Below, piece by piece: positions 15,938 to 64,000 of a stretch of DNA of 64,000 nt. Within the stretch, counting starts at the first letter, position 1. Every line of letters begins with the position of its first letter. Made by a program: the position numbers and the translations under genes. This DNA comes from Xiphias gladius (lineage: Eukaryota; Chordata; Actinopteri; Istiophoriformes; Xiphiidae). The stretch lies in assembly GCF_016859285.1 (NCBI RefSeq), contig NC_053408.1, positions 12,471,213-12,535,212 on the forward strand. The letters run 5' to 3'. The notes under the pieces were generated by a model, which ran no database searches, was not told the DNA's origin, and saw only the letters and a program-made list of their open reading frames with translations.

Positions 15938-16599
15938 CCTGAAATGAAACAGCACTCAGGGTAAGAAATGACTGTGGATCAATTATGCATAACTCTCTGC
16001 AAAATGAGCAATGATGTACACGTTTGTCATTACATAATAATGATTATGGACGAAAAAACTCAGCAGTTGGTTGATTAAATACATATCCATTCACCCACAG
16101 TATTGGGCAACTTTGGAATCTTGAGAAATTGTTCTTTCATCGACTGGTCATAACTTTTACTGTTATTACATAGGGTATCAACATTCAGTTTAAATGTTGG
16201 CAAGCTAAATAAGAATTTAAAAAGCACAAAAATCTCCCAAACCTAAAAAACTATAGAATATGTGCAAGTCATTTCAGTGTAGGTTCCAGATTTCCCACTT
16301 AACACTGATTTGGAAACTGCTATTGTACATCCAATCTTGGTTTGAGCTTTAAAATCTTTTACATAGTCTAATTTAATTGTTTGATGGTTAAATTATTCTC
16401 TGTCATACCAGGCTAAACCTGGGTGCTCTGCAGTCATTTGTTCAGTGTATTTACAAGTGGGCTGTACATTAATTACAAATTAAATGAAATGTTTCCTAAG
16501 TTAAAGTCCCTGTAAGGTAATGTCATGTTCAACATTACCGCTACGTGTTCATTTGATATTAACTTAAAATAAAACAAACAGGTGATTATTGACTCCAGT

Positions 16600-19512: not shown

Positions 19513-19606
19513 CTTTATGGACTGAAAATTAAAAAAAAAAAAAATGGAGGTACTGATCAGTGTCTGCATATTTAATATGCCATTGTAAGAGCCATTGTAA
19601 GAGCAA

Positions 19607-19632
19607 CATATATATATAATTAATATATATAT

Positions 19633-19676
<44 letters not shown>
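19607..19676. repeat. AT dinucleotide microsatellite
   Basis: Long run of TA units with short interruptions, just upstream of the coding start of zinc-finger gene 2, in its first intron or 5' region. Confidence 0.95.
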
Positions 19677-19681
<5 letters not shown>

Positions 19682-19699
19682 TTGTTTTTTATTAACAAT

Positions 19700-20730
19700 T
19701 CTTAACAGAGAGAAAAGGAGCAAACCTTAAATCTAATGCGGTTCCCATGAAATACGGTTGCAGTCTTGGATGAATCCCAGATTATCTGATCGGGATGAAA
19801 GCGTTCATTGTTTACAATATTCACATTCACGCAGATACTCGCATTCAGGTTGCAGAATCCTCAGGACACAGCAGACCAGGATGTCCATTCAGGATCGACG
19901 CCTTTCGCTATTATACCCGTTAAACCTTGTCGGAGTCCAAAAACGGTTTGGAAAATACATAGCTCAATAGCGGCGAGTATTTTTGGGTGCACTACACGTT
20001 ACCACGCACAACCTCCCCTTCCTGGGTTTTTACGGCGGCTGGAATCCAGGAGGTGCGTTGCTGCCACCTACTGGTTAATAAGTAAACAGCGTTTGAAAAC
20101 ATCCTGAGTAGGATTGACCCCCTTAAAAAAAAAAAGAAAAAATCTACATTCATCCTCTCTGATGCATATCCTTAACAGTCTGATTCAGTGAAAATGACGT
20201 TTTCAAATGGACTCCTCCACCATTAATGGGCCTGTCATTGACCCGGTCTCTGATGGTTTAAATAGCTTTTTCGATTCACATGAAACTCGACAAGTGCTCG
20301 TTTCTGTATTTTTAAAGTTCCTTATACTAAAAAACAAATTCCACAAGTTACGATTCTGCTTTCCTCCTCATTTTATTTTCTTTTGTAACTCTTGAGGTAC
20401 ATGACTCAGAGTACACCAAGCTAATGATAACATTTATATAACAATAAACCATTACTTGTCATTTCAGCAACAGATTGCATTTATACAAACATAAAAAGTG
20501 CTTTATCGTCTGATTACATATTCAAGCCTTATCCCCAAATTCATTTTTTCAAATGCATGTTAAAAGAAGCTGCAGTACAACTTTTACAAAATGGCAAAAA
20601 AAAAACCCAAAACAAACAAACAAAAAAACAGTTCAAGCAAACTAAGTAGTGAACTTAGTACATTCATACATTAGGTTGTTTTTCCCCTGACACCTTTAAG
20701 TGAAAGACCGTGTCCCCGAAGGTAAACTGG
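19700..20730. other. Intergenic DNA between zinc-finger gene 2 and pkmyt1
   Basis: About 19740-20060 is CpG-containing and fits the promoter and non-coding first exon of zinc-finger gene 2. From about 20150 to 20730 is the AT-rich 3'UTR/3' flank of pkmyt1, with a minus-strand AATAAA near 20372 and an A-rich tract with AAAC units near 20600-20630. No other gene is seen. Confidence 0.4.
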
Positions 20731-23700: not shown

Positions 23701-24886
23701 TTCACACAGACCTGGGCCAGGGGGCTGGTTCTCAGCATGGAGCAGCAAGCTGGTGCTACACAGCTCTGTCTGAATGTACAGTCGGCCACACTCCTCCCAG
23801 GCTGCCACAAAATTCAGGATGTGAGGGTGAGGACACAGGCGCTCATGGTTCCTGGCTTCCCGCACGCTCCGGTTCCTCTCACTGTTACCCCTGAAGCGAT
23901 GAGCAGACCGCTTCACTGCATACTGGCGACCATCCTCGTTGCTTTGCACCTAAAAAAAAATACAGAAAATGCTGAGGTTTTGTCTTTGGGGATCTCTAAA
24001 TGATAATCTTGGTCACAGAGAGAAAATAAGGCTTACAGAGATATCTAAATTTGTATTGTGAGCTTCCCCCAGACAAAGCCACAGCACAGATGTTGAAACA
24101 GTCAAGACTTTATGTACTGTTGCTGAACATAACTCCCTTTCAAGCTTACCCAATGTAAAGACTGTTTTTTTTGGATATAGAAGATAAGTTAAAAGGTAAC
24201 AGGCCATGCCTGTTAGCTTGTAGTAAGTTTTCAAATGGGCTTTAAACTTCTTCTTCATCTTAGAGACTTAATTTCTTAACCTTATTGTATTGTTTTTGTC
24301 TGAAGTGTCTTAAACTTGAACTCTTATGGCAAATTTCTCACAAAACTGTAGTCCTTAAAATGCAGCATTTAAATTTACTTAATGTAAAGATACAGCAACT
24401 TATAATGCGTAAGTATCATATCACTTTCATACACATATAGACTCAGACACAAATTTTTGTCTTGCTCACCTTGTAGACCTCTCCGAAGGATCCTCTTCCC
24501 AGTAGGCCCAAATTAGTGAAGCACTGATTGAAATAGGTCTGATGTTTGCTGGGATCATATACAGAATTCGGAGGCGGAGACTTACTAAGGGAACAAGACA
24601 GAGGTGTCCAAGGAGACTGATGCTGGGGGAACATCCTGCTCAAAGGGGGGCATCCCTTGGATGGTGGCAGCGGAGGCAGAGAATGTGAGAGCCGGGCAGG
24701 GGATAAGTAGGATGAGTTGGACATAGACGACAGGGAAAACGGGAGATGCCGCTTTTTGAGGGAGAAGGACTGCTCTGCATGGGAGAAGTGAGTCGGAAGA
24801 GGGAGAGGCCCCCTGGACACTGTTGTTTCCACTGCCACTGACATTCTGTATGCACTTTTTCAGTTCCTTTCTCTGAAGATAGTGTG
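20737..24886 (-). CDS. pkmyt1: Membrane-associated Tyr/Thr Cdk1-inhibitory kinase Myt1
   Basis: Seven coding exons on the minus strand: 24470-24844 (ATG at 24844; the exon extends to 24886 with 5'UTR), 23712-23949, 23299-23578, 23093-23199, 22821-22993, 22264-22484 and 20737-21121. They join to 592 residues (human about 500). A Pro/Ser-rich N-terminus precedes the kinase domain. Key motifs are the Gly loop [12 protein letters not shown], Lys138 in QYAVKR, the catalytic loop HLDLKPANV with Asp232, the DFG-type [10 protein letters not shown] with Asp250, and [12 protein letters not shown] hydrophobic stretch at about 374-401 ([18 protein letters not shown] onward) is the ER/Golgi membrane anchor typical of Myt1 and absent from Wee1. 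The tail ends NLLCLFEDT, the conserved C-terminal region. It phosphorylates Thr14/Tyr15 of Cdk1 to hold cells before mitosis. A non-coding first exon is expected near 25.75-25.85 kb. Confidence 0.93.
21301..22156. mobile_element. Non-autonomous repeat element in pkmyt1 intron
   Basis: The left end reads GGATGTCCCAATC and the right end GATCAGGACATCTCTAAAT, so the ends are roughly inverted copies. The left part contains the CCGATACCGAGTCC-type text common in teleost repeats. Inside is about 250 bp of unrelated open sequence. It fits a MITE or a hAT-like internal-deletion derivative. The exact ends and target duplication are not settled. Confidence 0.5.
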
Positions 24887-34500: not shown

Positions 34501-37500
34501 TAAAAGCAGGCTAATTGAACTGATTGGGAACCTGACGGGTGGTTTCAGTAAAGGGGTATTTGATAGGACATCAGATCTAAAACTTTATAAAGAAGAGGGG
34601 TTGATTATGTCACCAATATTTTCATCTAACGGCCCGAAACGACTGGTAAAAGCCAAACCTGCAACCTCTCCACTACATCGTAGAGTTTGTAGTTACTCGC
34701 GGTCAGTCCACTTTTCACATACTCTGCTTTGGCCCTTTCGTCGCACGTACACGGACTCGTCAGCGCTAAATGATGTCATACAGCTGCACAACCCAACACT
34801 TGAGCGGGTTTAGTTTCTGGGCAGCTTCCACTTCAGTCTGGAGTCAGAGTGTTTGGGGGTGGGGGTGGAGTGGATTTAGATATCAGTTGCCAAACACTCT
34901 TCCTCCTCTGTTTCCTTTCCATACTGGCATGTCTTGGATATGAATGCAGAAATTTGTTTGTGTGCTCTAATAACTTCACTGTGTCGATCGATTATCTCGG
35001 GGTTATGCCAGTTCTGACTGTCCTGTCCTCTGACTGATTAGTGTATCAGGGCGCTCATTGTCCTCCATGTCATGTACTGGTCACACAGGCTGTCTGTCTC
35101 TCCTTAGGAGTGCCTGAGACACCTAACTACCCTCTCAGTCCTCGTATTGTTGTGTTTGGTACGTAACTGTCTGTGCATGTGTTTGTATGTCTTTCATTCT
35201 GTCCTCCAGTATGTCATTTACTTGTCTATGCTTGTTATAACTTCATATGTTCTGTCTGTCATCCAGTGTGTTGCACTGCATGCTTTAAAAACGCATTCCT
35301 TCACTTTTATGTCTTTTGATTCACCTTTAACACCTCATAAACAAAACTGATAACCCTATAATAAATGCACAGATACATTACGGGGCTGTACCCTGCATTT
35401 AATTCCCGTTACAAACCAACCTGAAGCTAAACTGAATTGTAAATCCAACCAAGCTTCCATCACATTCATGCTGTTATGTGTTATTTCATTCTTCTCTCTC
35501 TTATTCAGTTTCTTTTCCGTCTTTCCCCTCCAGATGCGCTTCTTGCTGATCTGGAGAACACTGGTTCTCCTCTAGCTCGGTGTCCCGTCCTGCTCACCTC
35601 TGACCCTCCTCAAAATGCTGATCCTACCACCCAGGACCCTGCCCAGACCCGGCCACCACCACCCGCCTACACCCCACAGCAGGTAGGCAATCACCAGGGC
35701 CAGTTTTCAGTCGTCAAGCCTAATCTAAAATCTCTCACCTTTGCCTACAAATATTTATATTTGTATTAGTTTTTTTTTTCTAACATTTAATCTGTAAAGA
35801 TAGATTGTCCATCTGTTTTGTCTCTCAGACTGTTTCTGCTGCAATGAAGTCCACCCAGAACTCCAACCCAGACAAATTATACAGGTAACTCCCTCCCCAA
35901 TTTTTTCACCCTATTTGACGTATTGTAATAAGCCCACTGTTCCTCTTAACTTAGTTATATATTTATCTCACTAAATAAGCAGAATAAAGTATGATCTGTA
36001 TGGAAGACATTTCTTAGCCTGGTTCCAGACCTCTACTTAGATTTTTTTCAGAATTTATGAATTAGAATATATAATATATAATATGTCCATAACCGCTGTT
36101 ATGGACAAATGAGAGAGAGAGACACCTTGATGACAAGATGTTTAATAATCTGCATTAATTTTGGACACTGTCTCTTTCTTACAGCACAGTGTGTAAACCG
36201 CGCTCTCCCCGCACAGCAGATCCCCCTCCAGCCTTCTCCTCCTCCTCGCTGCTGGGAGGAGGTCTGAGTGAACTGGACCATCTGTTACAGGAGCTCAACG
36301 CCACCCAGTTCAACATCACAGGTTAGTGAGCGTGTCCATGTGTGTTTTCATATCCCTGTGTTTAACTCTGAACTGACCCTTTTCTTATGACCTTGTTTTT
36401 GTCGTCAGATGAGATCCTAGCCCAGTTCCCTTCTTCTAAGAAAGATGAGAGGGACAAGATTAAGGACAAGGCCACAACCTCCCCCTCCAGGTACAAAATC
36501 TAATCAGTTTGCTTATATCAAAGGAAACTACAGAATTCACTGCAACATAGTGAATGTTCTGCTCTGCAACCCATTTACACAAAAAAGAGAATTGCACAAG
36601 ATAAGTAAATAAATTAAAAAGTTGAAATCAATCAGATTCTTGAAAAGTCATCATAGAGAAAGACAAGGGTTAAGGAACACACACACACACAAACCCCCAT
36701 TTCATTGGTTTGTTAAAACGAGGGTTGTCTCTTGTTTTGTAGCTCTGCGAAGCCTTCAGCAACATCGGCCACACTGGAACTGGACAAACTGATGGCTTCT
36801 CTGTCTGACTTCAGAGTCCAGAGCACAGTAAGAGTCCACACAGCAGCATGAAAATGACACGGAGTAAATGTAAATCCCCAGGATTTTTTTTTTTTTCTTT
36901 TCTAACATTCATTCCCAGCTGTACCAAGCTTTTAACACAGCTCACACTGATTCATGGTGGGTTTCTTGAAGACGTTCACTCGACTTCATGATGACTACAC
37001 TGTTACTGTGTGGTCTAGCCGCGGCACATGCCTCCTGGTTTAAATCAGTCACCAGATATGGCCTGAGGATGGAAATTAGTCTTGGTGGAGATATTTTCCA
37101 GCTTCAAAAATAGCTTCAAATAGTTGGAAGTCAGAGTTATAGATGTGCGTTTGGTGTGGTATATAATCTGCTTGTTCTCCTTTTCAGCGAGTCAGCGAGT
37201 AGCATGTGAGCAAAAAAAGTGGTTCTATCATTGCAAGGTTGCTTGACCCCGGTGTGCAGTCTAGCGGCGGGTTATAAACAAGCCCGAGCACAGGGGAACG
37301 GAGGAAAACACATCACTGGATACTGTGATGTTCAGTACTTACTGAAGTGTCTTGTCTGATTTTACTCAAGCAAGTGATTTCCTACATTCCCCATAATTAC
37401 TCCAGACAGCCAGCAGAGAACAGAAATATGGGTTCATTACAAGCCAGCCTTCTAGTTCCTTGAAAGTTGGGGTTTCTTTATAATCAAGCCCAAAAGATGT

Positions 37501-40324
37501 CCCTCAAAAAAAGAGCAAAAAATCTGTGTTGTGGCTTGCAATGTATTCCCGTATATTAAGGCCACTCTGGGTGGACAATAAGTATTTCCACTTTAATGAT
37601 GAGGATTTGTAAGGATTTTTCCCTTGAGATTCTGCAAACTATTGAGTTTAATAAGAAGCCCTGTTTGACGCTCAGGGATTGATGGTCCTAGCTGGGGATG
37701 GCATGGTACCTGGGATGTCGTGCTGTAAATATATGGGATGCAGCTCAACCAGCTATGTTGCCTGGAAACCCTCTTTCAGGAGCGCAATGTCATTAAGCAA
37801 AATTTGTGCCTTTCGCCGTGCACGACGCTCTCTTTCTCCCTCGTCCTCTTTTTCCCCACGCATTACACGTTTGGTTTCTTTGCCCTTAACCCACAGAGGA
37901 AATCAGCCTCATATCTGGATGTAGAATTAAAAAAAAACAAAAAAAAACACAGTCGCTGTTTTTCATTGCAGTTAACCTCAGGCCAACTGTAGCCGCAACA
38001 ATAAACTCTTGGAGAATTAAAATCCCAAAGACAGATGTGCCATGCATCATTTCTCTTTCTCCTCCCCCAGCCAGCTGCGCCTGTCACTCCAGTGGTGACA
38101 GCACCGCAGCAGCCCACCACCCCCCCACAGCCCTCATCTGGCGGCTCGTTGGACAGCATGCTGGGGCTGCTTCAATCAGACCTGAGCCGACAAGGAGTTC
38201 AAACATCCTCCAAGGGAAACTGTTCAGCCTGTCAGAAGCCAGTAGTAGGACAGGTGAGTTATCAGTATACATTTACCTATTGATACATATAAGTATAATC
38301 ATTTTTTAACTCAAATTCACTTTTAATTGTTTCTTCGTGCAGGTGGTGACGGCTCTGGGGAAGGTGTGGCACCCGGAGCACTTTGTGTGCACCGAGTGTG
38401 AGACAGAGTTGGGCAGTCGCAACTTCTTTGAGAAGGACGGACGACCATACTGCGAGTCGGACTACTTCACCCTTTTCTCCCCTCACTGTGCACACTGCAA
38501 CAAGCCCATACTAAATGTGAGACACTTGGACGTGCACATGTTTCTGTCTCATTTTGAGCTTATTCTGTCATGAATCATCACCTCAACCCATATGACGCCA
38601 TTTAAGTTTTTATTCCTCCTGTTGTTTAGAAAATGGTCACTGCTCTGGACAAGAACTGGCACCCGGAGTGTTTCTGCTGTGTTAAGTGCAGCCGGGCGTT
38701 TGGAGAGGAAGGTAATGGGCGGCATGTACTGTATCCTGTCTGGGTTCAACACACAGCTGTTAACAGTGAACTGTAATGACCAAATTTAAAACATTTCAGG
38801 CTTTGAGACAAAAAAAAAAACAAAACAAGAAATACTGTCAGCCATTTAAAAAACAGAGTTCTACGGAAAAGGTTCAGACAGTGTTTGGAATTATCCAGTT
38901 AATTGGACATTTATCAAAGGAACCGTAGAACTGCGTACCTCGTGTCTTCTGCAGGTTTCCATGACCGTGAGGGCCAGCAGTACTGTCAGCAGTGCTTCTT
39001 GACTCTGTTCGCTTCCCGCTGTCAAGGCTGCAGCCAGCCCATTCTGGAAAACTACATCTCAGCTCTCAACTCTCTCTGGCATCCGCAGTGCTTCGTATGT
39101 AGGGTGAGTGTTTCTCTGTGGGCTTGGAGGACGTGTCCATATATAATAAATAAAATGGTAAAATGACTCCTGGTGTGTTATGGTTGCAGCTCTCATAACA
39201 TTATTCTGAGAAAAAGTCAGGGAGGTTGGAGAAATTTTGTATTTATTTTAATCCAAGGGTCATTACCCTGTACGGGGACAGGGCCGTAGATGCTATGGAG
39301 GACAGAAAGGTAACATTTCTGGAAATTTGGAGGAGGATTATAATGACATGAAGAGGATTTTGAATTCCAGTGTTTTTAAAAGGCAGATTCTTATTTTTCT
39401 TAGACTAAATTTGAAAGTTTTATGAAAAAAGAAAATAATTAAATGAAATTACAGATATGTAATGATCTCCACCACAATTACAAGCCCGGCACCAGGCCAA
39501 AATGTAGGGAAATAAAATTCACAGAAATGTTTGAAAGGATATATAAACGAATAAATAAACTGTGAATTTTTGTCTTAAATACTCAGAAAATTAAGCACAG
39601 TTTGTTTGGTGGACTGGAGGAAATTTCTTATGTGGGTGAGGTCCTGCTGTGGCAATGTAGACCTCAGTAATTTTAAAATCCTTGCTACAGCACTGGAAAT
39701 GGCACATTTCTGAGACCAGCAAACTGGTATTTGTTTAATATGCTCTCTTGAGCGAGGCACACGACCCGCAGCTGCTACAGTGAAGCTGCTCAGTGACCGA
39801 CGGATCAGTCTGTGGTTGTGATGTGTGCATGTGTGTAATCTTGTGCATGTGTTAGGGCGTTCCTGAAAAAAAGGCGCTGATTTAATTAAAACTACCATGT
39901 AAAAAAAGGTTTTAAACCCCCCCCCCAAAAAAATCTAAAAATAAGTTGGAATTATGTCATGAGAAAGTCTTCATTTCTCATGACAACTTTCTAATTACAG
40001 CTCTGTGAGTCAGGGCTCTCCGCTGTGACTGAATCGCACTGCTTCTCTCATCTCCAGGAGTGCTACACCCCCTTCGTTAACGGCAGCTTCTTCGAACATG
40101 AGGGCAAGCCGCTGTGTGAGGCCCACTACCACCAGTCCCGTGGCAGCATGTGTCAGGCCTGCCAGCAGCCGATCCTGGGCCGCTGTGTCACCGCCATGGG
40201 GGCCAAATTCCACCCCCACCACCTCGTGTGTCACTTCTGCCTGAAGCCCCTGAGCAAAGGCTGCTTCAAGGAGCAAGAGAACAAGCCCTACTGCCACCCC
40301 TGCTTCATCAAACTCTTTGGTTGA
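31563..40324 (+). CDS. tgfb1i1: Hic-5 / TGFB1-induced transcript 1, paxillin-family LIM adaptor
   Basis: Eleven coding exons (31563-31575, 35534-35682, 35829-35884, 36185-36321, 36409-36490, 36743-36827, 38071-38253, 38343-38516, 38630-38711, 38955-39103, 40058-40324) join to 458 residues (human 461). LD motifs are LD1 [12 protein letters not shown] (1-12), LD2 [12 protein letters not shown] (about 100-111), LD3 [13 protein letters not shown] (about 157-169) and LD4 [13 protein letters not shown] (about 200-212). Four LIM domains then run from [11 protein letters not shown] (about 224) to the terminal CFIKLFG, all with Cys/His zinc ligands. [13 protein letters not shown] after LD2 separates Hic-5 from paxillin and leupaxin. 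It is a focal-adhesion scaffold binding FAK/Pyk2 and vinculin-type partners, and a nuclear receptor coactivator induced by TGF-beta. Intron 1 is about 4 kb. An AATAAA at 40939-40944 ends the 3'UTR. Confidence 0.95.
33402..33850 (+). mobile_element. Repeat remnants in tgfb1i1 intron 1
   Basis: GATCAGTGATTCCCAACCAG at about 33407 resembles hAT-type terminal repeats of fish MITEs. At about 33775-33845, GGCTCCAGCCCACAACGCGA, then AGGATAAGC, then GGGTGGATGGA is the familiar end of a very abundant teleost repeat. The interval between holds no intact transposase. The boundaries are approximate. Confidence 0.5.
35108..35158 (+). other. tgfb1i1: Candidate in-frame cassette exon of tgfb1i1
   Basis: A 51-nt block follows a strong acceptor (TGTCTCTCCTTAG) and ends TTTG|GTACGT. 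It is in phase 1-1, the same phase as the exon 1/exon 2 junction. Included, it would add 17 residues ([15 protein letters not shown] and flanks) after MEDL and change LD1 from LDALLADLE to FDALLADLE. Skipped, the normal [12 protein letters not shown] results. Prediction only. Confidence 0.45.
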
Positions 40325-49255: not shown

Positions 49256-50563
49256 GTGACCAGGTTGAGGATTGTCTAGTAATTGGTGACTGTACAGCTG
49301 AACCTATATGTTCATTATAATAACCATTTAAGGAAGTTGTCATGGCATGGGCCATCAACATAAGTCATGCACTTTTGTGTTTTTTGTAAAAAAAAAAAAA
49401 AAAAAGCATGCATTGTGTATCGATACTAAATATGATGTATTTGGTGTAATTTTCCATCTTATATGTTTGAGTTGTAAAGAGACTTTTATTTATTGTGTTC
49501 ATTTGGAAACAGGAATCAATCATTTAAATTGCACCCTTGTAGAGCACTTGCAACATAAATAAAAAAATCTTTAAAAATGCTCAAAAGATTGATCTGGTTT
49601 GCAGAAAATGCATTCTAGCACTAGAGTTGGAGGACTTTGCTACATTGTTTGCTCCTTTTGCTTGCAGTCAAAGTCCTGGACTTCAGGCTTTTTAGATTCT
49701 GCTTTGGATGGTGAAGTGGGTCTTATTATAACTTGATGCAAAGTTGGATAGGCAGCATCCATTCAAGCTATTACTGAGTCTGGTTGTAGCTCCATGAATT
49801 GATTAACTCTGGCTCACATCAAATCTCTCAACAAATCTGTGCTCCAGATATTGTTGGTTTTTCCACAAGCAAACCAAACTAATTGGCCTGTTCTGTGCTG
49901 AAACGCCAGTGTGTGACATTCCTAAAGGGAGAAACTGATGGGAGCAGCAAGACAGGATGTGTCTTGTACAGTATAGGGAGAGGGAAGAAGTCCTTAACAA
50001 AGTGGCAGAGTGCAAATATGAATTAATCTTGTGCTGTGCAGAACAGAAAATGGCTAATTAAAGACAGATATGGGATTCACGAGGCAAGTTATGCCAATTA
50101 CTGTATACTAATGAGAAACACGGAGAAAGCTGCAGAAAAAGAGGGAAATTGGGAAAGCAAAACCAGCAGAAGCACACACTGTCATATCTAGGTTTTACTT
50201 ACAAGAAATATACGGTTGATTCAACCTAGATGTGAACGTTTAGGTAAATGTGGTTATTGCTTAGCACAGAAGTAATGCAGTAAAATTGTGCACTATTTAA
50301 ACATAACATGGTGTCTTTTGAGATGTGTAAATTATGGCTCCCTCTTGAACCTGCATGCCTGTGTTTCTCAAACCCTCTGCTTTGTCCATATCTGCATTCT
50401 TGAAGAGAATCTGGGCTCCAAAGTACTCAGGAACACACAAGGCTGTTTTAATATAATACATTTAGGAGCGTTGTATAGAAATCTGATATTTGGTTGTTTT
50501 CAGAAGCACAAAATTTTAATTTCACTTGAGTGGATGGTGGATCACCTGGTAATGCTTTGATAT

Positions 50564-50845
50564 TTAACATGTTATCTCTTCACCTTTAAATATACTGAAG
50601 TGATTGCTTTTCAAACTCCTACTCAGACCTCTCACTGTGCTTGCAGCTGTCAGCTCTCGGCTTGTCTGCAGCAGGTTTAAAGCAACATTGTCAACTGGAG
50701 TTGGATTTCCAATTCCAAACAGCTTTGGATACTCAACAGTTGGCAGATTCCACTGGCTGTTAACCAAACACTGAGTCAGAGCCTCATTGGCCAGCCTCCT
50801 TAGAACAGCTGCACACATCTGGGCAGGGATACACATTACAGACAT
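50564..50845 (-). other. Unassigned 93-residue open reading frame
   Basis: Minus-strand frame with protein-like text (VLRRLANEALTQCLVNSQWN; YPKLFGIGNPTPVDNVALNL). There is no known family, no clear splice partners and no promoter signal. It may be a gene or transposon fragment or chance. Confidence 0.2.
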
Positions 50846-51440
50846 GGCCGTGTGGAGTAAGAGAACCCTTGTCGAACAGTGGTCGCACTGTTGTTTGGGC
50901 CCACTTTTTCTTTTCTTTTTTTTGTTTTTGCATTACACAGAGCGACACACTAACATCCTGACCACCACCTCAAACCAAACCCCACTGTAGGAGTTCAGTG
51001 AAGCCAGCTTCAGCATTAACAGCTGTCTCGATTCATGTCATCTGTGTCTCTTAAAATATTTTGTTTTAGTACTCAGCTTGGCTTTATACTGATAGTACAG
51101 GTGCACAAGGCAATAGATGTCAGTCAGGAGGTACAAGAAACTGTCAAGAAGACGCACTGTGATTATTTGTCCTCAGTCTTCTTTTTAAGCCGCCCTGACT
51201 GTGTGTACACCATAGTGTGGGAAGTCTACATAAGACATCAACGTGCCTTTGTCTGTTCTGTAAAGATTTGTAGGTAAATATATAAACGGCTTGTGGCTTT
51301 TAGGCCACAAGCCTAATGACCTTTCCACCCCTCAACAGTTTAGTTCAGTCATACATTTTCCACTCAGCATATCTGTCAGCTACTGGAAATACATGGCTAT
51401 AGAAGCCTTTCCCAGACCAGGGCATCTTTAAACAAGATGA

Positions 51441-51762
51441 AGACGTGCTAGCTAGCGGCCCTGTTAGGCTGTACTTTGGCATAGCGATGCTTTGAGCTAA
51501 ATGCTAACATCAGCATGCTAACATGCTGATGCTGAGCAGGTCTACTGTGTAATGGGGATGTCACTGTTTTTTTTAGGTATTTAGTCATAAACCAAAGTAT
51601 TGGACAAATTAAAATTGAAACTGATGATGGTGGCAGATGAAAAGTTTAGGAAAGCGATTGCAATTTACCTTGAGTTCATGAACGTCTTCAATTTCATGGC
51701 AGTCCATTCACTCGGAACCACAAAAATGAACCTCATGGTGGCGCTAGAGGAAAAGTGTCAGA
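51441..51762 (+). repeat. Percomorph dispersed repeat, internally shortened
   Basis: GTGCTAGCTAGCGGC, GCTTTGAGCTAAATGCTAAC, ATCAGCATGCTAACATGCTG, then GTCATAAACCAAAGTATTGG, AATTTCATGGCAGTCCAT and CCTCATGGTGGCGCTAGAGG are in the order of a common fish repeat. The usual middle section is missing. Confidence 0.8.
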
Positions 51763-52328
51763 AATGACTGTGCATGCTGTGATTTAAAACCAGTTATTAA
51801 TTTGGTAAGAATGTAAATGTCGCGTTGTCAATACATGCACATAAAATTAGTCAACACAAACATCTACAAATATCACATCAGTTACTCTGCTCGATCCTTT
51901 TTCCTGCCACTTAACACACTATGAGATGATTTGCATGAGATCCTGCATAAGCAAACCTTTATTCAAAAAATACTTTGTGCCCCATAAGTGGTTCTTAAAT
52001 GATTAAAGCCACGACTGTTTAAATATTTTCAAAAGAGATGAGAAGCTTGAGGATCACAGATGAATTGAAAGACACATTTGTTACCAGGTGGTGAAAAGTT
52101 AGACAGATGGTTTGTCAGTGGCAGCGGAGGTGGTGAGTGAGTTTGTTGAAAAGCCAAGTATGTGAGAGGTCTGGGTGGGCTGGGAGGCAAGATGTCAACC
52201 TCTCCTTGACCTCCTAAGGAGAGGATTTGGACTTTACGTGAGGAATCTATGTGAAAGGTGAGATATCGTTTCTCTTTTTACCTGCTTTTTTCTTTAAATA
52301 TACAAGGGGCCACTCTTATCCAACAGCA

Positions 52329-52331
<3 letters not shown>

Positions 52332-52381
<50 letters not shown>
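52332..52381. repeat. GT/CA dinucleotide microsatellite
   Basis: About 25 uninterrupted GT units, followed by an imperfect GTATGTTCGTGTGTG tail. Confidence 0.97.
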
Positions 52382-52386
<5 letters not shown>

Positions 52387-53423
52387 TCGTGTGTGTTTAT
52401 AGGCTGGGACCATGGAGACGTTATGGGCTCAAAGAGGTGTGAATATAGGATGAAGCTCACAGTTTCCACATTATTCCCCTTTTCACTGGCAAGTGACGTC
52501 GTTATTGTCATAGAGTCCAATCACAAATAAAGCTGCATATAGTCCAGACAGGTTGCACAATGAGCTCACTGTACAACACATATTCAGTCTTTACAACACA
52601 TGCAATAAGTTTTCTGTATTAGTCTACAGAGATATTTACCAAAGTGCTTGAAAAGACTGTTCTTAAAACGAAATATCGGACTAAACTGCTGCCTATTCAG
52701 ACCATTGCATGTATAGTTTTAGTTCTGTTGTGTTCCGTCACTGTGTTGCAGCCATTTGGATGATTTATTACCCTGTTATTTAGCTTATATTTATCTTAAC
52801 CAGTCTGCAGTATATGTCTTTCCATGGATGGCGGTTCAGATGATCCTTTCAAAGTTGCTTTTCTGCTTTACAGTGTGTTTGATCTTTTTACGTGACGTCT
52901 GTCCTCTTCTTCACATTATATCTGACTTGACTACAGCTCATTAAAAGTATTCTGAAGTGCACTCGCTTTCAAGGGGAGCACATTTATTTATGCATTTGTG
53001 GCATTGCATGACATTAGGAAGTGATGGCCAACACCTTGATCCAAAAATACTGCATAGATTAATTTGCTGTAAGGATATACACATATGTACAGACAGGTAA
53101 ATTTGAATGAATGGTTTTACAGACTGCTCAAAATATTTTAAACTATAAAAATGATCACAAATCAGTGCAAAACTGCTGCGTCCTCCTTTATCCAGCGTGT
53201 GTGATGCACCTTCCGCAGTTCATCAGTCACTGTCCAATCTGGTGAACTCCCTCTCTTTGCTTGTCTCTCTCTCTCTTAAGTGTTAATGTACTTTAAGCAC
53301 CCAATTATTCAGTTAGTGTGTGTACACCTCGGGTGTATCTCCCAACAAGAGTGGGGAGGATCTGGAGACCAGGAGCATCTACAAGAAGAGGTGGTGAGAG
53401 GAGGGGCGCCTCAGACCAGAGTG

Positions 53424-53430
53424 TATATTA
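53424..53430 (+). promoter_or_regulatory. TATA-like box of the repeat-protein gene
   Basis: TATATTA lies 107 bp upstream of the start codon at 53537. This fits a tissue-specific promoter with a 5'UTR of roughly 75-85 nt. Confidence 0.4.
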
Positions 53431-53536
53431 GACCCCCTCAATAAGGGTACGTTGCCCACTCTAGAACATCTGCTTCACCCTCCTCATTCTCCTGCTGGGT
53501 CTAAAAACAGTTTGGGCTTTTTCCTCCAGGTCCACT

Positions 53537-56500
53537 ATGTTGGGGCAACTACTTCTTCAGGGTGCGGTGATCCTTTGGCTGATGCAGACAGCAAATACAG
53601 GTGGTGAGTGTCTGAAGTGCAGAGATGGAGGCCCCTGCAGTGTAAAACAATTCGATAACCAATAGCTCAGTGGTCACATTGACTCCTGCTGATGTTTTAT
53701 ATTGGATTTAAATTCCTTTGTGTGGGGTGTATTTTTGTAACATTATTACATGCATGAAATGTCTTTGTGACTGAGCCTGTGAATCAGTAATGTCAGTCTG
53801 AGATAGCTGCCTTGTGCAAAAGAAGTGAAATGACAGGTTTAGTTGGAGTAAATGCAAACACAAAGGTGGCAAAAACACTGGGAAGTTCATACAGAAATTG
53901 AAAGCCAGTTATTAGAATCCTTCCAGAAGAAATTCAGCTTTGTAGTTTATTGTTTCTGGGACCTATGACGATGTAGCTGGCAATGAGGAACCGCTCTGTC
54001 TCTGCACATCAGTCGTAATTTAAAGGCCTATAGTTAGCCCCTGTGAGCGACATACAGTATTTCATTGTTTCACTTCTTGCTGCGTTTGATTTAAAGTTTT
54101 TCTAAAAAGGTGATTTTATCAGAAAATGAACCAAATATACAGAAAATCTATCTCTGCTGTAAGTGGATCTTTTCCTGTTAGAGCTAAAATCTCTTGCAAA
54201 AGTTAATTTCATTACAGTATCATAGTGAGAAAATCTTTAATTCACCCGCAATTGTTTTTTATGAAGTCTACTATAGTGCTCAATTTTCTTGTATCCACAG
54301 TGTTTTAATTGCAGCTTGCAGCTTTCCTACCAGTCAGTACGTGGGCTCTCTGCGAGTTCTGAAATGTTGTATTTTGTCTCAGTGAGTGGAAGCTTCTACC
54401 ATATTGCTTTTTTGATCAGTTTTAAATTAAACAAGAGTGGCAGCTGGAGTTGCACTCTTTCAACATCATCTACACTAATACCAGAACTCAATTATGCAAA
54501 ACTAGGCCAGAATTTAGGCTGTTGAATGATTTGAACAGAAATCCCTAAGAGAAGTGATTAAACTCTATCCTAAATAATTCTTTTTTTCAAACTGTACCCC
54601 CATACGTGTGTTTGTATATTCTGCATAGTGTTGTTGGTTAGTACAACCTGCTAAGAGTCCCGAAGAGATGAAGGAGAGATGAGACAAATGTCTTTCTGAT
54701 GGTCGGGTTTGCCTGTCAAATTTCAAACGATCATGTTAAACTGAAATCCTAGCAATGCGCGAGCAGCATAGCTTTTCCCTGTGGTTGGCCCTCTACCAAC
54801 TTTTCTTATGATGATGCGAAGCAGCCGTATAATCGGTTTTCTCTTTAACCAGCGGCCTCAGTTTGTGGAATCAAAGGCAGCATGGCTTCAGTGGCAGCAG
54901 CACTCTAAATTTAACATCCCTCTGTGAGAAGGGAAGAGAATGGTTTTACTGCTTGTACGCAGTCACTCCAATGACTTCTGCCTGAAAATGTTCATCAGAC
55001 TACTGACTCACCACCACACTGAATTTGAAAGTGGATGTGCAATTCTGATTTAGCGACCGTGTGAAAATTACTGGGGTCGGGAGGTGGGCTGAACCTGACG
55101 TTTAACTTTTTAAAAAGGCAAGCTCCTTCCTAGCATTATTAATATTGACTAAGGAAAAAAAAACATAATTAAAATACGGCAATGTAAACCTCGATATGTC
55201 AATAGAATTATAAATTAAGCTAAAGCAACCAATGTGTGCCGTTCGCAGTGGAAAGCAACACAAAGTTCAATACTACTGTCACTTTATTTTTGAATTAAGA
55301 GCGTCTAAATGAACTGTTAGTGCATGATTAAATCAGGACACATGCTGGTGGCAGCTCTGTGTCTGCTGATGGACCTAAGCACCATAATATTTGTGCCGCA
55401 CACCCAGTTTCCAAATTCTAAAATAAATAAATAAACTAATAAGTTAAAAAATATAAATCTCTCCTGCTCGCACAAAAAAGTCACACTGTCGCTCTATCCC
55501 TCCTTCAAAAATACATAACTGTGTCCCAGTTCCATCCCTCCATTTCCCGCTAACACTTTCTGGACAGTCCCTTAATAACTCACAGGGACAGTTTCCATAA
55601 TGATATGAGCGTTTTTGTCATCAGATACTGGTTCAATCTCTGGTGGGGGCCTCCAGGATGAGCTTATTCTTTGTAGAAGCCTGTCGAGAGTCGGCTCAGC
55701 AGCCAAGATAATCTACGATTATGATGTTCAACTGACCAGTCAGTTCAAGTGTGTAGTCATGGGTAGTTTTACCCATAAGCATCACCACACTCATGCTACC
55801 TTATGTTGAGCTTCGTCTCTATTGACATGAGTCTACATAACACAGCTGTATGGAGTTGTGTAGACAAAGGTCTGATTTATATGACATACTGTATATATCT
55901 TTGTAATATAATTTTCTGATGACTACAGATGTATCACCAGTGCAGTTGCCCAAATTGTAAGAGAACAGGGAGAATGTAAAGTTTTTCTTTTTCACTTGTG
56001 GAAAAAATAATGGTATTTCTTAACAGTTTAGGGGCTGTATGAAAGTTATCAGGGTGAGGAGGGCGGCTGAACAAGACCCTCTCCAGAGTTATCGAGAGCT
56101 TTAAGTTTCTCGGCTCAGTTTAGGTGAGCTGTGGATAAACGGAAAATTAGGTGTGTGAGTTCAGATCACCCATGGACAGAAGAAAAGGCGCATGCAGAAC
56201 AGATCAAATTGGTAACTTTCCAAACTGTAAACAGCCACAATCAAAACGTTTCATCTCATTAAATTGCTTAGCGGAACAATTGGTTGAACATCATATTGCA
56301 ATAATCTGACGGTAGTTTTACATTATGTGTGTTGTGTTTAAGGTTATAGTGCTGCAGCTGGAGTATCCAATGGACAAAGGCCACAACCTAATGGTGAATC
56401 CACACTTTCTGTCTTTATGAAACATGAAAATTATTACAATTGTGGAATTTTGACACAAGCCGAGGCACAGTTAACATTTATAATGTAGTTTTTTATTTAC

Positions 56501-59500
56501 TTTTTAGGAAAGAAACCCCAAAATGGTGGAGGTGTAGGAAGAATGCTGATGCCATCGAAAGGTAAATTAACAGCACATTTCTCCAACCATGAACTCACCT
56601 GTTCCTAAGAATTTGAAATGTTGTTGTTGTTGTTATTTTTTTTTCTAAGGTGTGGGTCAGACAATGGGTGCACAAAATGGATATGGTGGATACCCTACAA
56701 AAGGAGTAGGTCAGTGATTACAGAACGTGAACATCAAATGAACCTGCATGGTCGGCTGATCTTAACTGAGACTGTCATCTTCCTAATGTTGCTCTCAGGT
56801 TTTGGGCCAGCGGTTTCAAGTGCAAAAGGAGCAAAATCTAATGGTAACTCTGTTTACACACTGCCATCATGCAAATTTAGCATTTTATTATGACATTTAA
56901 TGTTTCTTTTTGTGTCTTTTTTTTTTTTGGTTGATTTTTTTTTAACCACATATATAATCTAATTAAGGCTATGGAGCAGCAGGTGGTGTGACCAATGGAG
57001 GAGGGACAAAAGGTAAGTTCACCGCATATCTGTGTTCACTCTATTTAAGCAAATCATCAGTTTAAATTGGATATTGTTGGATATTTTGATTATGTTTTTA
57101 CGTCTTGTTTTTTAAGGCTATGGACCAGCAGCTGGTGTGACAAATGGACAAGGTGGCAAACCGCAGGGTAGGTATTCTGATATGAATCCACCTCAGCTCA
57201 AAGAAAAAAAAAAAAAAACATTTTCAGGTGACTAATATTTTTGCAGTGAGGGTGTGATGGTGCTGAAGTTCTCTTTTTCACTCAATCAACAGGCTTAAAA
57301 AAGTGGATGTTAAAAGTTGGTTGTCAACAATTTAAATTCAGTTAGTCACAGTGGAGCTTCAGGCATAGAAAATGCATAGCCAAAATATAACTCAAATATT
57401 TCTGAATGTAGTTAAATACACAGCTTCTGGTGAAGCTTCACAGCTTCAGGAGACATATAGGGGCACCACAGAAAAAGTGGACTTAGCCATATTTTGCTGG
57501 GGTTTGTGCTGAGTGTTTGGAGTATAGTGAGCATACAGATGGACAGCAGTGAAGTTGAATCAGCTGCAAGAGTGAGTTTGAGAAGTTTCGCTTTTGTTCG
57601 CTCTATTTCATGCTCACAAAGCAGCAATCAGTCATCCAAAATACCCTTTTTTTTCTCCTTTTAAGTTTTTTTTTCCCCCTGATAACTGTACTGTAGCACA
57701 TTTTGCTCAGTGTTTAACCTGTGTATCGGAATCAGTATCTTTCACTAACCTTTCTATCTGTGCATACATTGTGTTTCTAATCCAGGAAGAAATCCAGCTT
57801 TTTTACCCAGTGGACATGGAGCTAAATCCAGCAGTAGATACTGTATATTGAATACAGCTCTCCACCTTTAAACTTTGCATCCACAGTAGCAATAATGAAA
57901 ACGCAACGTAATGACTGATTGCTGTAACATAATCATTCTGGGATTTTTGTTGCAGGATATGGTGTTCAGGCCGCCCCAGCCAATGGGCAACAAATGAAAG
58001 GCAACGGTATGATACTGAGGACACATGCATACGCTTTCACACACAATGAGCAACAACACCATTCAATTTAAATTTTCTTTAAGTTGCAGGCTACGGTGCT
58101 CAAGCTGGCGGATACGGTGGACAAGGAACTAAAGGCAATGGTATTTTAGATGCGATAATATACTAGATCACATTTTGGTTGGGTTTGGGTTGTGGAAATG
58201 TTTTATATGTGTTGAATATAAGAGATAGATAGATGATATCATCAATTCTCTGCTATAAAATCATTTTAGTTTAACTTCATGTGCTGGAAATAGAGTTGAA
58301 AAGTATGTCACACTCAAGCTGACATACTGTAACTACCTGACATCTTTAATTGCTGGGGTCATGAGAATGATGGGAGTTTGGAAAAATGGTTGTGATCACT
58401 TGAGAAACTGTGAACCAGATGCTGAGTTGAGGCCACATTTAAACTCACACGGTCTCCTTAACCTCCAGGTTATGGAACTCCTGGAGCTATAGCACCCAAT
58501 GGAAACAGAGGCCATTTGAATGGTAAGTCCCCATTTTCAGTCATGTAATGAAGACAGAAAGTCTGCTGTATGTACGTTACATTAATGGAAATGCAGTAGC
58601 TCCTACAGCAATTTTATGTCTGTGTTTATTTATTGGATGTTAAGAATAAAATCTTGTTAGCATACACACACAAACACACACATATATACATTCAATAAGA
58701 GCAGGGTAAGAAGAACCGTGTAATGAGATGAACCCAGTAAAGATTGTCAGATAGGTCAGATTCATAATAAATTAAAAAGGAACTTTGCAAGAATTCAGTA
58801 AAATCACTGTCAGAATCCAACATTAACATGATATAATGTATCAGCACATTTTCATCTAAGACGGCATTAGTGACTTTTAAAAGCCTTTCTCTGCAGCATC
58901 CACATTTTAAAAACCCAACTGAAATGACTGATGATTGGTTACGCTATATAGCATCAAGAGAAAAAGGACCTAAAACTGATTTTGTAGTGTCAGCAACACG
59001 TAGAGAGTTCCTATACCGATTGTACTGTATGTAGATTAATTAAAATCTTCTGTTTGCAAGGCTGTGGTGCTGTATCTGTTGTACTTTATGTAAATGTAGC
59101 TAAAACCAATAGTAGTATCTGTAAAAACCAAACTTTAAAGCCCACATTTTAATAAATATATGTAAATTGTACAACATCTTTGAATATAATAATTGTTCTT
59201 CTGGTCAAGGAGCCGCAGCTGGCCCATCTAATGGCAATGGGGCAAGACCAAATGGTGAGACGTGTAAAGCGGTTACGTGGTTATAGGCAGCCTGGTACTT
59301 TTTCAGTTTTTCAGACATAAAACATGTTTGTCTGTTTGTTTATGTAACTTAAACATGTCTGTCTATTTAAAAGGGCAGGGAGGAGCTGGAAAAAAACCCA
59401 TGAAGGGATATGGAACACAACCTTATGGGGCAGGTAATTCATCTTCTTCATCTTGTTCAGGAAATAAAAACATTCACTTTGACACAAGATTTATACATCT

Positions 59501-62500
59501 GTATTTCTGTGATTTAAGGTCCAAGTGTAGGTATGGGAACCTCCAGAGGTCTGGGAGTACCTCAGCTTGCGAGGAACCAAGGCAAGGGTGAGTGAAGGCC
59601 ATGGCACAGAACTGAGGTCACCTCCTGATACACCAGTAACAGTGTCTTAACTTGCTCTTCCAGCATATGGCAGTAATGGTTATAATGGTTATGGAACTCA
59701 GCCCATGGGAGGTGAGTCATACTCTAGTCAGTCCGTGTTGATTTCACTTATTTGGTACCATGATTAATAAAAGTAAAATATTATTTGTTAATATATATGT
59801 GTATATTTATAGGACACAATGGCGGTTATGGCCATGCTGGTTTGGTTCTGGGACCTCGGTATGGAAATGGAGGAATGAAGGGACCGAAGCAAGGTAGGAG
59901 TATCACTACTGTCAATTGAAAATAATATATCTTCAAATTTGGTTATTGTCTGTTTCTAGATTACATGTTCCTGTGTACAACTCAGCACAATTTCCTGGAC
60001 TCACCTGATGATGTTAAAATTTCAGGCTACAGTGGTGCAGCTGGTGTGCCCAATGGACAAGGCACAAAGCCCAATGGTACATCTGTAATTATTATATAAT
60101 ACAATACATCACATACAGAAAAAAAAAAGACAGGCAACCATTAAAATCATCTAAAATCATTGTGTTATAAAATGTAAAGGTTATGCAGGAGCCAGAGCCC
60201 ATAATGGAAATGGAGCCATGCCAAATGGTGGGTCAACATGCAAGAAAGTTGTTATTATTACTCTTATTACATTTACACTATAAGATTAAAATTGTTCTTT
60301 ATGTATGTGTAACAAGGTTATGGATACCCAAGCAGTGGAGCTGCCAAGCCACCAAAACCAGGTAAGGGCATGGTCACAATTGCATAGATGTAATTATTTT
60401 TGGGTAGGTTCACGCATTACTTCTTTTTGATAAGATTCTTAGATGAGCTATGGACATGTTTCCTTAATCATTACTTTTAGAGAATATTTAAAACAGAATC
60501 CACCTCTTTTCAAAAACAACACATAACTTCAGTTCATATTAGAGTTGAATCATTAGACCTCTTTGCATGAAGCTAAGATGAAGGTGTCAGCATAAATCCT
60601 GATTTTACTTTACTCCGCTGTAATATTTTTTTAGGGTATGGCAGCTTTCCAAATGGATATGGTGCCAAACCCAACGGTGAGGCTCACTTCTTTTTTCAGA
60701 TCTTTTTATGATTCAAGATACTGTTTTATTTTAAAGACATCTCAAATCCGATTATAAAGCAATTTGCCTTCATGAATGTTTTACAGGATATGGAGCCACC
60801 AGAGGTGGTACAATTAGACTCCAACCAGGTACTATTTGTATTTTCAGCATGTCATAAACATTAGCTGTAAAAGTTTAGATCTTTCTGTAATGATGTATTT
60901 GCTCTCAAGGTTACGGAAATGGAGGTGTTCCCAATGGATATGGAAGTAAACCCAATGGTAATTGATCATATTTATTGTTACATATATTCATCGTGTAGAA
61001 AGGAAGCTCTGTGGTTTAGTGTGATGGGATATTTATGTTATATTGTGCCTGACCTGAATCCCAAACCCAATGCTACATCCTGTTAATATGCACTTTATAT
61101 AGAGTAATACTTTATTATATTATATATAGAAGATTTTAAATTCCAAAATTTATAACAAAACAAATAAAACAAGTAAATTAAGTAAAATATTGAAAAATAC
61201 ACGTTTTATGTATTTCCTTTTTAATTTGAATGTGTGACCGTGTCATAATTAAGAAAAAAACAAAACATTACGGCAATTATTCAACTATTCATCGTTAATA
61301 AGTAGGTGTGACTCAAGATGTGATTGAACATTTGATTGTTTTGCATTTTGTGTGTTTCCATTTCAAAAACAGAAAATTCTCCTCTGCACCTCCTCATGAA
61401 ATCCAATGACTGTGGTTTGCATTTAGTATTGGCACTGAAATGCAATACACCACTTCACTTTGTTTTCTGTATTGTAATTTGATTTTAATGTGGCATGGAA
61501 AATTTATCACAACAAAGAGTTATTAAATTGGTTATTAAAAACAGAAAAGCTAAATAAATTTAATTTAACATAGGTTTTGCATTTAATTATGAGACCGTAG
61601 CTTTACATTATGGTGTAAAATTAATCTTTCTTTGATTCATTATAATTTTGGCATTTAAAATCTTGTATAATTTAATTTTTGTTATATTTTCTCTCAAGGT
61701 CATGGAGTTAGAAATGGTGCTTCACTTGGTGGATATGGAGGTAAAGTCAATGGTAAGCTCCACCCATCCAAATTTATTTTTGGAATTCAATAGGAGTTAT
61801 TCATTGAGCTCTGAATCTCATTTGTCAAAGTTAATCCTGTGGGGCTGTTGTGATGGTCAGCGCAACAGTGTCACTGGGATCTCTTTGTGACATTTGTAAA
61901 CCATCGTTTGCAGGATACGGAGGGCCAAGCAGAGGCTCAAAACCTCAAACTACCAAAGGAGTTGGAGCAATGTCACCAAGCGAAGGTGCTAAAACACTCG
62001 GCACTGGTAAGATTTCTTAATAATATAAATAACACATCCTGTGTTTCTGATATCCAAAACAAGCATGTAAACTTCAAGCATAATTTTGTCTAATAAGTTT
62101 TTTCATAAGTATTTCTTTTTGTATTGATCTGAAAATCATATATTTACAATGTCTGCAGTGCTTGTGGGATTTTGTGTGATTTTGTGAATTTGTTTATGAC
62201 AATGTTATGTTTTACAGGCTATGGTGGTCCTGCTGCTGTACCCAATGGACAGTTGGCTAAAGCAGCCAATACTGGTAAATGCTTGTGTACATCCATGTGT
62301 TTTGTTTCGGCTTTATCTCTGTTGTACCACATTTTTTTGTTAAATTCTACTTTTCCTTAGTGTTGACCTAACAAATTGTTTGTCTTAACCTAAAAGGTAG
62401 CATTGCAACTTTGGTTCTGCAAACTTTCTGTAGATTAATGTGTGATGTGTAATTTTGTCATGTTTTGAGTTTTACTGTGCACTCATTTTAAGTAATTTTC

Positions 62501-64000
62501 TGTCTTTTTAATTATACTCTCAGTGGTTTTCCGTTCAAATTCGGTTTGGATTTCATCTCTGTGCCGTTCTCAGGTTACGGCATGATGCCAAATGGGAAGG
62601 CTACAAAGGGTGCAGGCCCTTCCAATGGAATGGGCCTCAAAGGTGGAGTTCTCTCTCCTGAGCAACCAAGTGTTACACCTCAACAAGCAATAACTCAAGG
62701 TGCGGCACCTGTTGCCCTCAAGCCAACCAGTGGTATCTTTGTAATGGCGACACAGGAGAAATATCAAAAGCTGCCTTTACCTGTGCCACAAGGTAAAAGC
62801 TACAAACAGACGCCGCTAGTCCCTCAGGCTACACCAGAACTGGCACCAGCGCTTACTCAAGGCAAGGACCCAAGGCCTGCACTTGAACCCACACCTGAAC
62901 CTGTACCCATGGGCCCACAGGGCATGGGACCGAAGGCACCTGCACCAGTGGTTCCACAGAGTAACCCAGCACCAGAGCCAGCAGCAGTCCCATCTCAAGG
63001 CAAGTACCCTTAACCCGAATCTGTGCAGTGCTTCCGTAGCATGACCAATATATATGGTGTAAGTCTACAGTACACTGGATTTTATTTTTTTCACTTTCAC
63101 TTAAATGAAAATTGCTAAACAGATTTTATTTTTACTTGAATTGAATTATTTCTTATAAGTGGAAGTGAAGGATAAAAAAAAAAAACAGATGATAATGATC
63201 TGATAGTAAAGGGTTTGTATCTCAGGGACTGGTGCAACAAATTTTAAAACTTGTACATGGGTATATGCACCTTTCATATGTACTTCATGAGAATCAGTAT
63301 AATCCCTATGTGGATCAGCATGTTTTGCAGTGTTGTAATTATAAAACACCGAGATGAAATAGCAGAATGAGACTCTACTAGTTTATTAAAAGGGAAAAAA
63401 ACGAATTGTCTACTGAACTTTTCCTGTGACAGTGGTTGTTCGTGGCAATGTTGCCAAATTTTGCTGTGTGCTCAGTGAGAACTTAACCACTGTGAGCAAC
63501 TGATGGAATTACACAGACATTTTTTATTTTTTGTTAGCAAAGGAAATATTTTCTAAGAACGCGCTGAAAGAGATGTGCGCAGTTGCCAAACTAGGCAAAG
63601 TTATGTTTTAGTAGAGATGGATGTTCTCTTAAAACCGAATTCTTTATAAAGCAACTCACGGATTGTCATTCAAAAACATAATTCTTTGAGTAGTAATGGA
63701 AACAGCTACCATAATGCATATTCTTGGGAATCTACACACTGGTGCTGATCACTGTAGAATGTCAGTTTTCAGCCACGTGCATTTAGCTCCATGTGTTTCC
63801 AATGCAACAAGTTCGAGTACTAGTAGTAGTTTTAATGTTTTCTATATATTTGTGTATTCTGTGTTTATTAACATACGGCGGTCGCTTGCTGTAATAATTT
63901 GCAAACGATTAGCAAAATAATATGTACACATAAATGCTGATGAGATGTATGGCCTCTAGGTTATGTGACAGGAAGTGCTGTGCCTGAGCAAAAAGGTGCA
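53537..64000 (+). CDS. cmn: Secreted Gly/Tyr/Asn-rich repeat matrix protein, calymmin/GREP1-like (3' end off window)
   Basis: Exon 53537-53603 encodes a signal peptide (MLGQLLLQGAVILWLMQTAN). Then follow 24 internal exons, all phase 1-1: 56343-56393, 56508-56561, 56650-56709, 56799-56843, 56968-57012, 57117-57167, 57956-58006, 58090-58140, 58469-58522, 59210-59254, 59374-59433, 59519-59587, 59664-59711, 59813-59893, 60026-60076, 60180-60227, 60317-60361, 60635-60676, 60787-60828, 60910-60957, 61699-61752, 61914-62006, 62218-62274 and 62574-62999, then 63960 onward. Most encode one unit of about 14-20 residues, such as GYGPAAGVTNGQGGKPQ or GYSGAAGVPNGQGTKPN. Exon 62574-62999 is long and Pro/Gln-rich. 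There are no Cys. I infer a fibrous extracellular-matrix protein. Calymmin of the fish notochord sheath is the best fit, from repeat style and position near pkmyt1. An elastin-like or other matrix protein is the alternative. Confidence 0.6.
57786..57833 (+). other. Candidate weak repeat exon of the cmn-like gene
   Basis: After TCTAATCCAG an open 48-nt block reads GRNPAFLPSGHGAKSS in the gene's phase 1. It ends at a weak donor (AGCA|GTAGAT) that keeps phase 1-1. It could be a rarely used or decaying repeat exon. Confidence 0.35.
59061..59096 (+). pseudogene. Fossil repeat exon of the cmn-like gene
   Basis: After TGTTTGCAAG, a 36-nt block in phase 1 reads GCGAVSVVLYVN, resembling G-Y-G-A...N. 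The expected AATG|GTA donor has become AATGTAGC, so the normal phase-1 donor is lost, and Tyr2 of the unit is Cys. It is probably a dead copy. Confidence 0.4.

Follow-up and report, generated by a model that had tools for sequence, protein, structure and literature searches.

Calymmin, tropoelastin and the fibrillar collagens are the described proteins nearest to the gene reported here. Passages of the literature describe calymmin as a matrix protein of the zebrafish notochord sheath (PMC6981171), as teleost-specific and matrix-like (PMC12174470), and as weakly similar to elastin and required for normal vertebrae, the vertebral mutant being spondo (PMC7988777). Through the notochord sheath it has been linked to vertebral patterning in teleosts (passages of PMC12174470 and PMC7988777), and a 'Calymmin isoform X1' is listed in an excerpt on the sea bream transcriptome (PMC10864312). 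The passages that mention calymmin contain no description of its exon structure. In tropoelastin each domain is encoded by a single exon, according to a passage of PMC7947355. An excerpt of PMC8875079 gives 57 and 59 exons for the zebrafish elastins, with teleost KxxK motifs containing proline, and places these genes next to limk1; it also gives a two-cysteine tetrabasic C-terminus as a feature of all described tropoelastins. The present study concerns a plus-strand gene of Xiphias gladius that begins in a window of 64,000 nucleotides (the whole stretch of DNA analysed; assembly GCF_016859285.1, contig NC_053408.1, positions 12,471,213 to 12,535,212 of the forward strand) and that consists of a long array of small exons. 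The array in the window is probably the 5' half of the fish calymmin gene (cmn), which encodes a secreted notochord-sheath protein; it was identified by its match to the published description. Most likely the gene itself is already known, and it is its exon architecture that is worth recording.

Structure of the exon array

An exon-chaining script was run on positions 53400-73000, that is, on the window and the DNA downstream of it, where window numbering is continued beyond 64000. The chain was anchored at the signal-peptide exon and no phase was imposed. A stricter first exon search had given 33 exons only and was replaced by this run, which used looser splice-site limits. After chaining, one boundary each was changed by hand in exons 6, 7 and 27 and exons 8 and 18 were inserted; in the 3' part the ends of exons 49 and 51 were moved and the last exon was inserted. 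The splicing of the whole gene, and with it every exon position, is a prediction from sequence. Features inside the window are as follows, the basis being the exon search and the curated model unless stated.

53424..53429, plus strand, TATA-like element TATATT upstream of exon 1, spotted by eye
53537..53603, plus strand, exon 1, carrying the start codon and encoding the signal peptide MLGQLLLQGAVILWLMQTANTG, with hydrophobic stretch, phase-1 end and good donor
56343..56393, plus strand, exon 2, GYSAAAGVSNGQRPQPN
56508..56561, plus strand, exon 3, GKKPQNGGGVGRMLMPSK
56650..56709, plus strand, exon 4, GVGQTMGAQNGYGGYPTKGV
56799..56843, plus strand, exon 5, GFGPAVSSAKGAKSN
56968..57012, plus strand, exon 6, GYGAAGGVTNGGGTK, start placed manually
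57117..57167, plus strand, exon 7, GYGPAAGVTNGQGGKPQ, end placed manually
57786..57833, plus strand, exon 8, GRNPAFLPSGHGAKSS, final base A and not G, inserted manually
57956..58006, plus strand, exon 9, (R)YGVQAAPANGQQMKGN
58090..58140, plus strand, exon 10, GYGAQAGGYGGQGTKGN
58469..58522, plus strand, exon 11, GYGTPGAIAPNGNRGHLN
59210..59254, plus strand, exon 12, GAAAGPSNGNGARPN
59374..59433, plus strand, exon 13, GQGGAGKKPMKGYGTQPYGA
59519..59587, plus strand, exon 14, GPSVGMGTSRGLGVPQLARNQGK
59664..59711, plus strand, exon 15, AYGSNGYNGYGTQPMG
59813..59893, plus strand, exon 16, GHNGGYGHAGLVLGPRYGNGGMKGPKQ
60026..60076, plus strand, exon 17, GYSGAAGVPNGQGTKPN
60180..60227, plus strand, exon 18, GYAGARAHNGNGAMPN, inserted manually, acceptor weak
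60317..60361, plus strand, exon 19, GYGYPSSGAAKPPKP
60635..60676, plus strand, exon 20, GYGSFPNGYGAKPN
60787..60828, plus strand, exon 21, GYGATRGGTIRLQP
60910..60957, plus strand, exon 22, GYGNGGVPNGYGSKPN
61699..61752, plus strand, exon 23, GHGVRNGASLGGYGGKVN
61914..62006, plus strand, exon 24, GYGGPSRGSKPQTTKGVGAMSPSEGAKTLGT
62218..62274, plus strand, exon 25, GYGGPAAVPNGQLAKAANT
62574..62999, plus strand, exon 26, 426 nucleotides, rich in Pro and Gln, built of five G...Q blocks, donor GC, with inner GT donors in frame
63960..64253, plus strand, exon 27, 294 nucleotides, cut by the window end (64000), the gene running on downstream to exon 53

The structure of this gene is genuine and striking. 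A single plus-strand gene runs from the signal-peptide exon at 53537-53603 to a stop codon ending at 72022, 8 kb beyond the end of the window. The curated model has 53 exons, 51 of them internal, and encodes 1247 amino acids. Every internal exon (33-426 nucleotides) is a multiple of 3 in length (51/51), and the last exon contributes one Asp and the stop (72018-72022; L002:9018-9022). The 52 introns have a median length of 139 nucleotides and a maximum of 2739, as calculated before a 6-base shift of one exon end. All acceptors are AG (52), and the donors are GT in 50 cases and GC in 2, the two GC-AG introns lying at 62999/63000 after exon 26 and, following position 71422, at L002:8422/8423 after exon 51. 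Both GC donors come after compound or unique large exons.

A single phase runs through the gene. In the anchored, phase-free run all 49 internal exons were of type 1-1, and in the curated model all 51 are, of which the exons added manually were picked in phase 1-1 and so are no independent evidence for the rule. Glycine is the residue split at 41 of the 52 joints of the whole gene. The last base of the exon is G at 49 of the 52 and A at the other 3, and since no stop codon starts with G or A, skipping any one or any number of internal exons leaves the frame open. A first-pass annotation of the window had seen 24 internal exons between 56343 and 64000. The symmetric array that it described is borne out, with the count corrected to 25 complete internal exons, all in phase 1-1: 24 of 42-93 nucleotides and one of 426 (62574-62999), which are the sizes it had given. 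It was right that each internal exon could be skipped or duplicated without a frameshift, all being in that phase and multiples of 3, which resembles the situation in the elastin gene. Its G|GN joint with a split glycine holds for most joints, other residues standing at the remainder, and its limits are too narrow for the gene, which spans 53537 to about 72022.

The array was also set against chance controls. Without the anchor, the gene strand scored 678 and gave 50 exons, of which 48 were 1-1; this run includes two extra 5' exons which are not 1-1 and were excluded from the model. The best score among nine genomic decoys (the gene's opposite strand, three stretches of the window on both strands and one downstream stretch on both strands) was 88, with at most 9 exons and at most 2 of type 1-1, and the best of ten second-order Markov shuffles was 22, with at most 4 exons. 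It should be noted that 16 exons of the array served to train the composition model, a choice that inflates the score of the gene and leaves phase unaffected. Pure chance as the origin of the array is ruled out by these decoys and shuffles.

Repeat units and their age

Two types of unit are found, each with one exon per unit. Type 1, GYG...(P/T/S)NG...K, comprises 30 units (exons 2-25 and 28-33) in which G-Y-G opens the unit, small residues and then an NG turn follow, and a Lys stands towards the end. Type 2 comprises 11 units of 16-24 amino acids (exons 38-48), of which 10 have a final Tyr and 5 a penultimate Lys. The grammar of the 30 type 1 units was compared with 5000 within-exon shuffles, the motifs having been selected after inspection of the exons. 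Residue 2 was Tyr, Phe or His in 23/30 (shuffle mean 3.0, maximum 11), Lys was among the final five residues in 21/30 (mean 8.7, maximum 16), and NG lay inside positions 6-13 in 16/30 (mean 5.1, maximum 14); just 4/30 had Lys or Arg among the first five residues (shuffle mean 11.1). The first three counts all exceed the shuffle maximum. Exon 26 is compound: it has five blocks, each starting with G and ending with Q, with CAAGG recurring at the joints, and it carries donor-like inner GT sites in frame after 62699, 62732 and 62792. It resembles several fused units, and alternative 5' splice sites there would keep the frame.

The whole protein has 68 Lys, 69 Tyr, 22.6% Gly and no Cys. Exons 2-25 encode no Asp and 1 Glu in 431 amino acids, and this near-lack of acidic residues suggests a constraint on charge. 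Assuming cleavage after residue 22, the mature chain has an isoelectric point of 9.5 and a grand average of hydropathy (GRAVY) of -0.59. KxxK occurs nine times, four times as KPxK. The product would be a roughly 120 kDa, basic, cysteine-free and probably disordered chain. Its predicted layout starts with the signal peptide; next come some 30 short Gly/Tyr/Asn/Lys units, interrupted by a middle part containing Pro and acidic residues (exons 26-27), then the eleven longer, mostly Tyr-ended units and finally a distinct C-terminus. The earlier view of a symmetric mini-exon array for a fibrous protein is supported, the product being repetitive, secreted and probably fibrous.

The units are related to one another. 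Self-BLAST of 53000-72500 at an expectation value (E) of 0.01 gave 13 pairs. Ten of these involve exons; they measure 26-72 nucleotides at 75-92% identity and, judged by eye against the list of exons, overlap introns by at most about 22 bases. Exons 6 and 7 are the strongest neighbouring pair (92% over 37 nucleotides). A 49-nucleotide family of nine copies (at least 61%) coincides with exon starts, with a copy at 59046 falling outside the model exons. Tandem Repeats Finder, run on 50000-64000, reported a TG run only and no tandem array of units. As there is no tandem array and similarity is mostly limited to exons, the units are old. Recent change in exon copy number was dropped from consideration, as no recent exon-plus-intron duplicate is visible in the assembly, and the proposal that individuals differ in exon number finds no support here. 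This result holds for the present assembly and is silent on other species, between which variation in exon count is plausible.

Identity of the gene

It was found that no Pfam family matches either half of the gene and no PDB sequence matches exons 2-25 (both at E 0.1). The genome itself (690.8 Mb, 1298 contigs) was searched as well. Exons 2-25 gave 21 matches at E of 1 or less, 20 inside the gene and one elsewhere at E 0.5; all 12 matches of exons 38-53 lie inside the gene, and the DNA of exon 26 matched itself only. There is no second significant genomic copy of exons 2-25 or 38-53, exons 27-37 not having been included in the search. Like calymmin as described, the gene is secreted and weakly elastin-like in character, having a signal-peptide exon and Gly-rich, Lys-bearing repeats without the hallmarks of elastin. 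The fit to the published description, together with the lack of any other significant genomic candidate, leads us to calymmin, and the hint at a notochord protein in the first-pass annotation agrees with the reported place of calymmin in the zebrafish notochord sheath (passage of PMC6981171).

We put the probability of this identification at about 0.8. Several points weigh against it or against what is built on it. The name calymmin depends on fit to a description; exons 8, 18 and 49 are less certain, as are one or other boundary of several further exons; and according to a passage of a review (PMC5593684), the zebrafish notochord became kinked when lysyl oxidases were lowered, yet none of the three layers of its sheath changed significantly, which weighs against a simple story of cross-linking by lysyl oxidase.

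If the gene is calymmin, its working could be pictured as follows. Gly, Pro and Asn-Gly turns would keep the chain flexible, and the periodic Lys and Tyr could turn into cross-links, so that the protein is probably cross-linked in the sheath. Exon duplication and loss would set the length of the chain in evolution, with the frame unharmed owing to the phase rule, and the same rule would permit exon skipping by splicing. A design of one exon per unit in one phase predicts in-frame isoforms and in-frame, species-specific exon counts, and the Lys and Tyr at fixed positions of the unit are the predicted cross-link sites.

The gene could instead be another, undescribed fish matrix gene of the same architecture, since several Gly-rich matrix proteins resemble one another in composition and calymmin was compared by description. 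We regard this as quite unlikely, because the description of a teleost, secreted, weakly elastin-like protein fits and neither exons 2-25 nor exons 38-53 had another candidate in the genome, although an exon-by-exon search might overlook a distant calymmin whose repeat has diverged.

A diverged tropoelastin, that is, a third or relocated elastin gene working as elastin does, is very unlikely. The 53 exons found here, encoding one unit each in the array, and the proline-containing KxxK motifs recall the zebrafish elastins. The C-terminal 20 residues, GAKNGNYDLNGFFGNSGYQD, are however unlike the cysteine-bearing tetrabasic end of tropoelastins; VPGVG, PGVG, KAAK and KAAAK are all absent (0 of each); the chain is hydrophilic; and kinase, LIM, PAQR-type and PP1-type genes were identified as neighbours, limk1 not being among them, though it was not specifically searched for. 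The alternation of hydrophobic and cross-linking domains seen in tropoelastin is not found, as Lys sits within most units. Membership in elastin was rejected on the C-terminal test and the hydrophobic-repeat test. A hand-made elastin-like query, used without a positive control, had no match in the genome. A degenerate pattern for the elastin C-terminus hit 7 genomic places, which is no excess over its backward controls (3 and 6), and no elastin exon lay upstream at the three of the seven places inspected. Neither search located elastin itself.

That the blocks are open merely by chance, or belong to two adjacent genes, is scarcely credible: exons 26 and 27 do differ from the flanking units in composition, some introns exceed 1 kb and the joining of exons is predicted, but decoys and shuffles fall far below the gene score, one phase is kept over 52 joints behind one signal peptide, and type 1 units flank exons 26-27 on both sides.

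Other genes were observed in and beyond the window. Two adjacent C2H2 zinc-finger genes on the minus strand (14678-15955 and 18336-19701), apparently a tandem pair, have closely similar coiled-coil-like N-termini, one of them MSKLERLNAR. A protein kinase gene with a Pfam match (23280-24859, minus strand) is presumably PKMYT1. At 35476-40300 on the plus strand, LD-motif-like and LIM-like stretches seen by eye resemble the paxillin family, a LIM-motif regular expression giving no match; the gene may be TGFB1I1/Hic-5. A fragment of a PH-domain gene lies at 9216-9614 (minus strand). Directly 3' of the calymmin-like gene is a PAQR-type (HlyIII) gene at 73087-74567 (plus strand, window-equivalent; L003), and beyond it, at about 86175 in the same numbering, a PP1-type phosphatase gene.

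Comparison with known systems

Fibrillar collagens are also encoded by many small frame-keeping exons. Collagen exons open with a whole Gly codon in phase 0-0, unlike the phase 1-1 exons of the present gene, which also lacks sustained Gly-X-Y. Collagen was rejected, as the four-triplet pattern G..G..G..G.. occurs at 2 places only and Pfam gave no match at E 0.1; the earlier statement that the repeat is neither VPGVG elastin nor a collagen run stands. The likeness to calymmin is one of description: a weakly elastin-like teleost matrix protein of the notochord sheath on the one side, and a secreted, Gly-rich product of a single significant locus on the other.

With tropoelastin (ELN; teleost elna and elnb), as portrayed in the excerpts cited above, the gene shares a large number of small exons that each encode one domain, a flexible, Gly-rich chain and, in part, lysine motifs of the KP type. 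It lacks VPGVG-type repeats, KAAK, the Cys pair and the tetrabasic end, its chain is hydrophilic, and the neighbours identified are other genes. It is best read as a gene that would work like elastin and is not classed as elastin. A more speculative, rather unlikely idea is that calymmin and elastin share exon-level ancestry: an elastin-type mini-exon gene would have lost its hydrophobic repeats along with the end bearing cysteines and basic residues, its units would have become modules for Tyr/Lys cross-linking in the notochord sheath of teleosts, and both splicing and divergence between lineages would adjust the number of exons. Gene structure could provide a test of a possible kinship between elastin and calymmin in cases where the sequences are too dissimilar for one.

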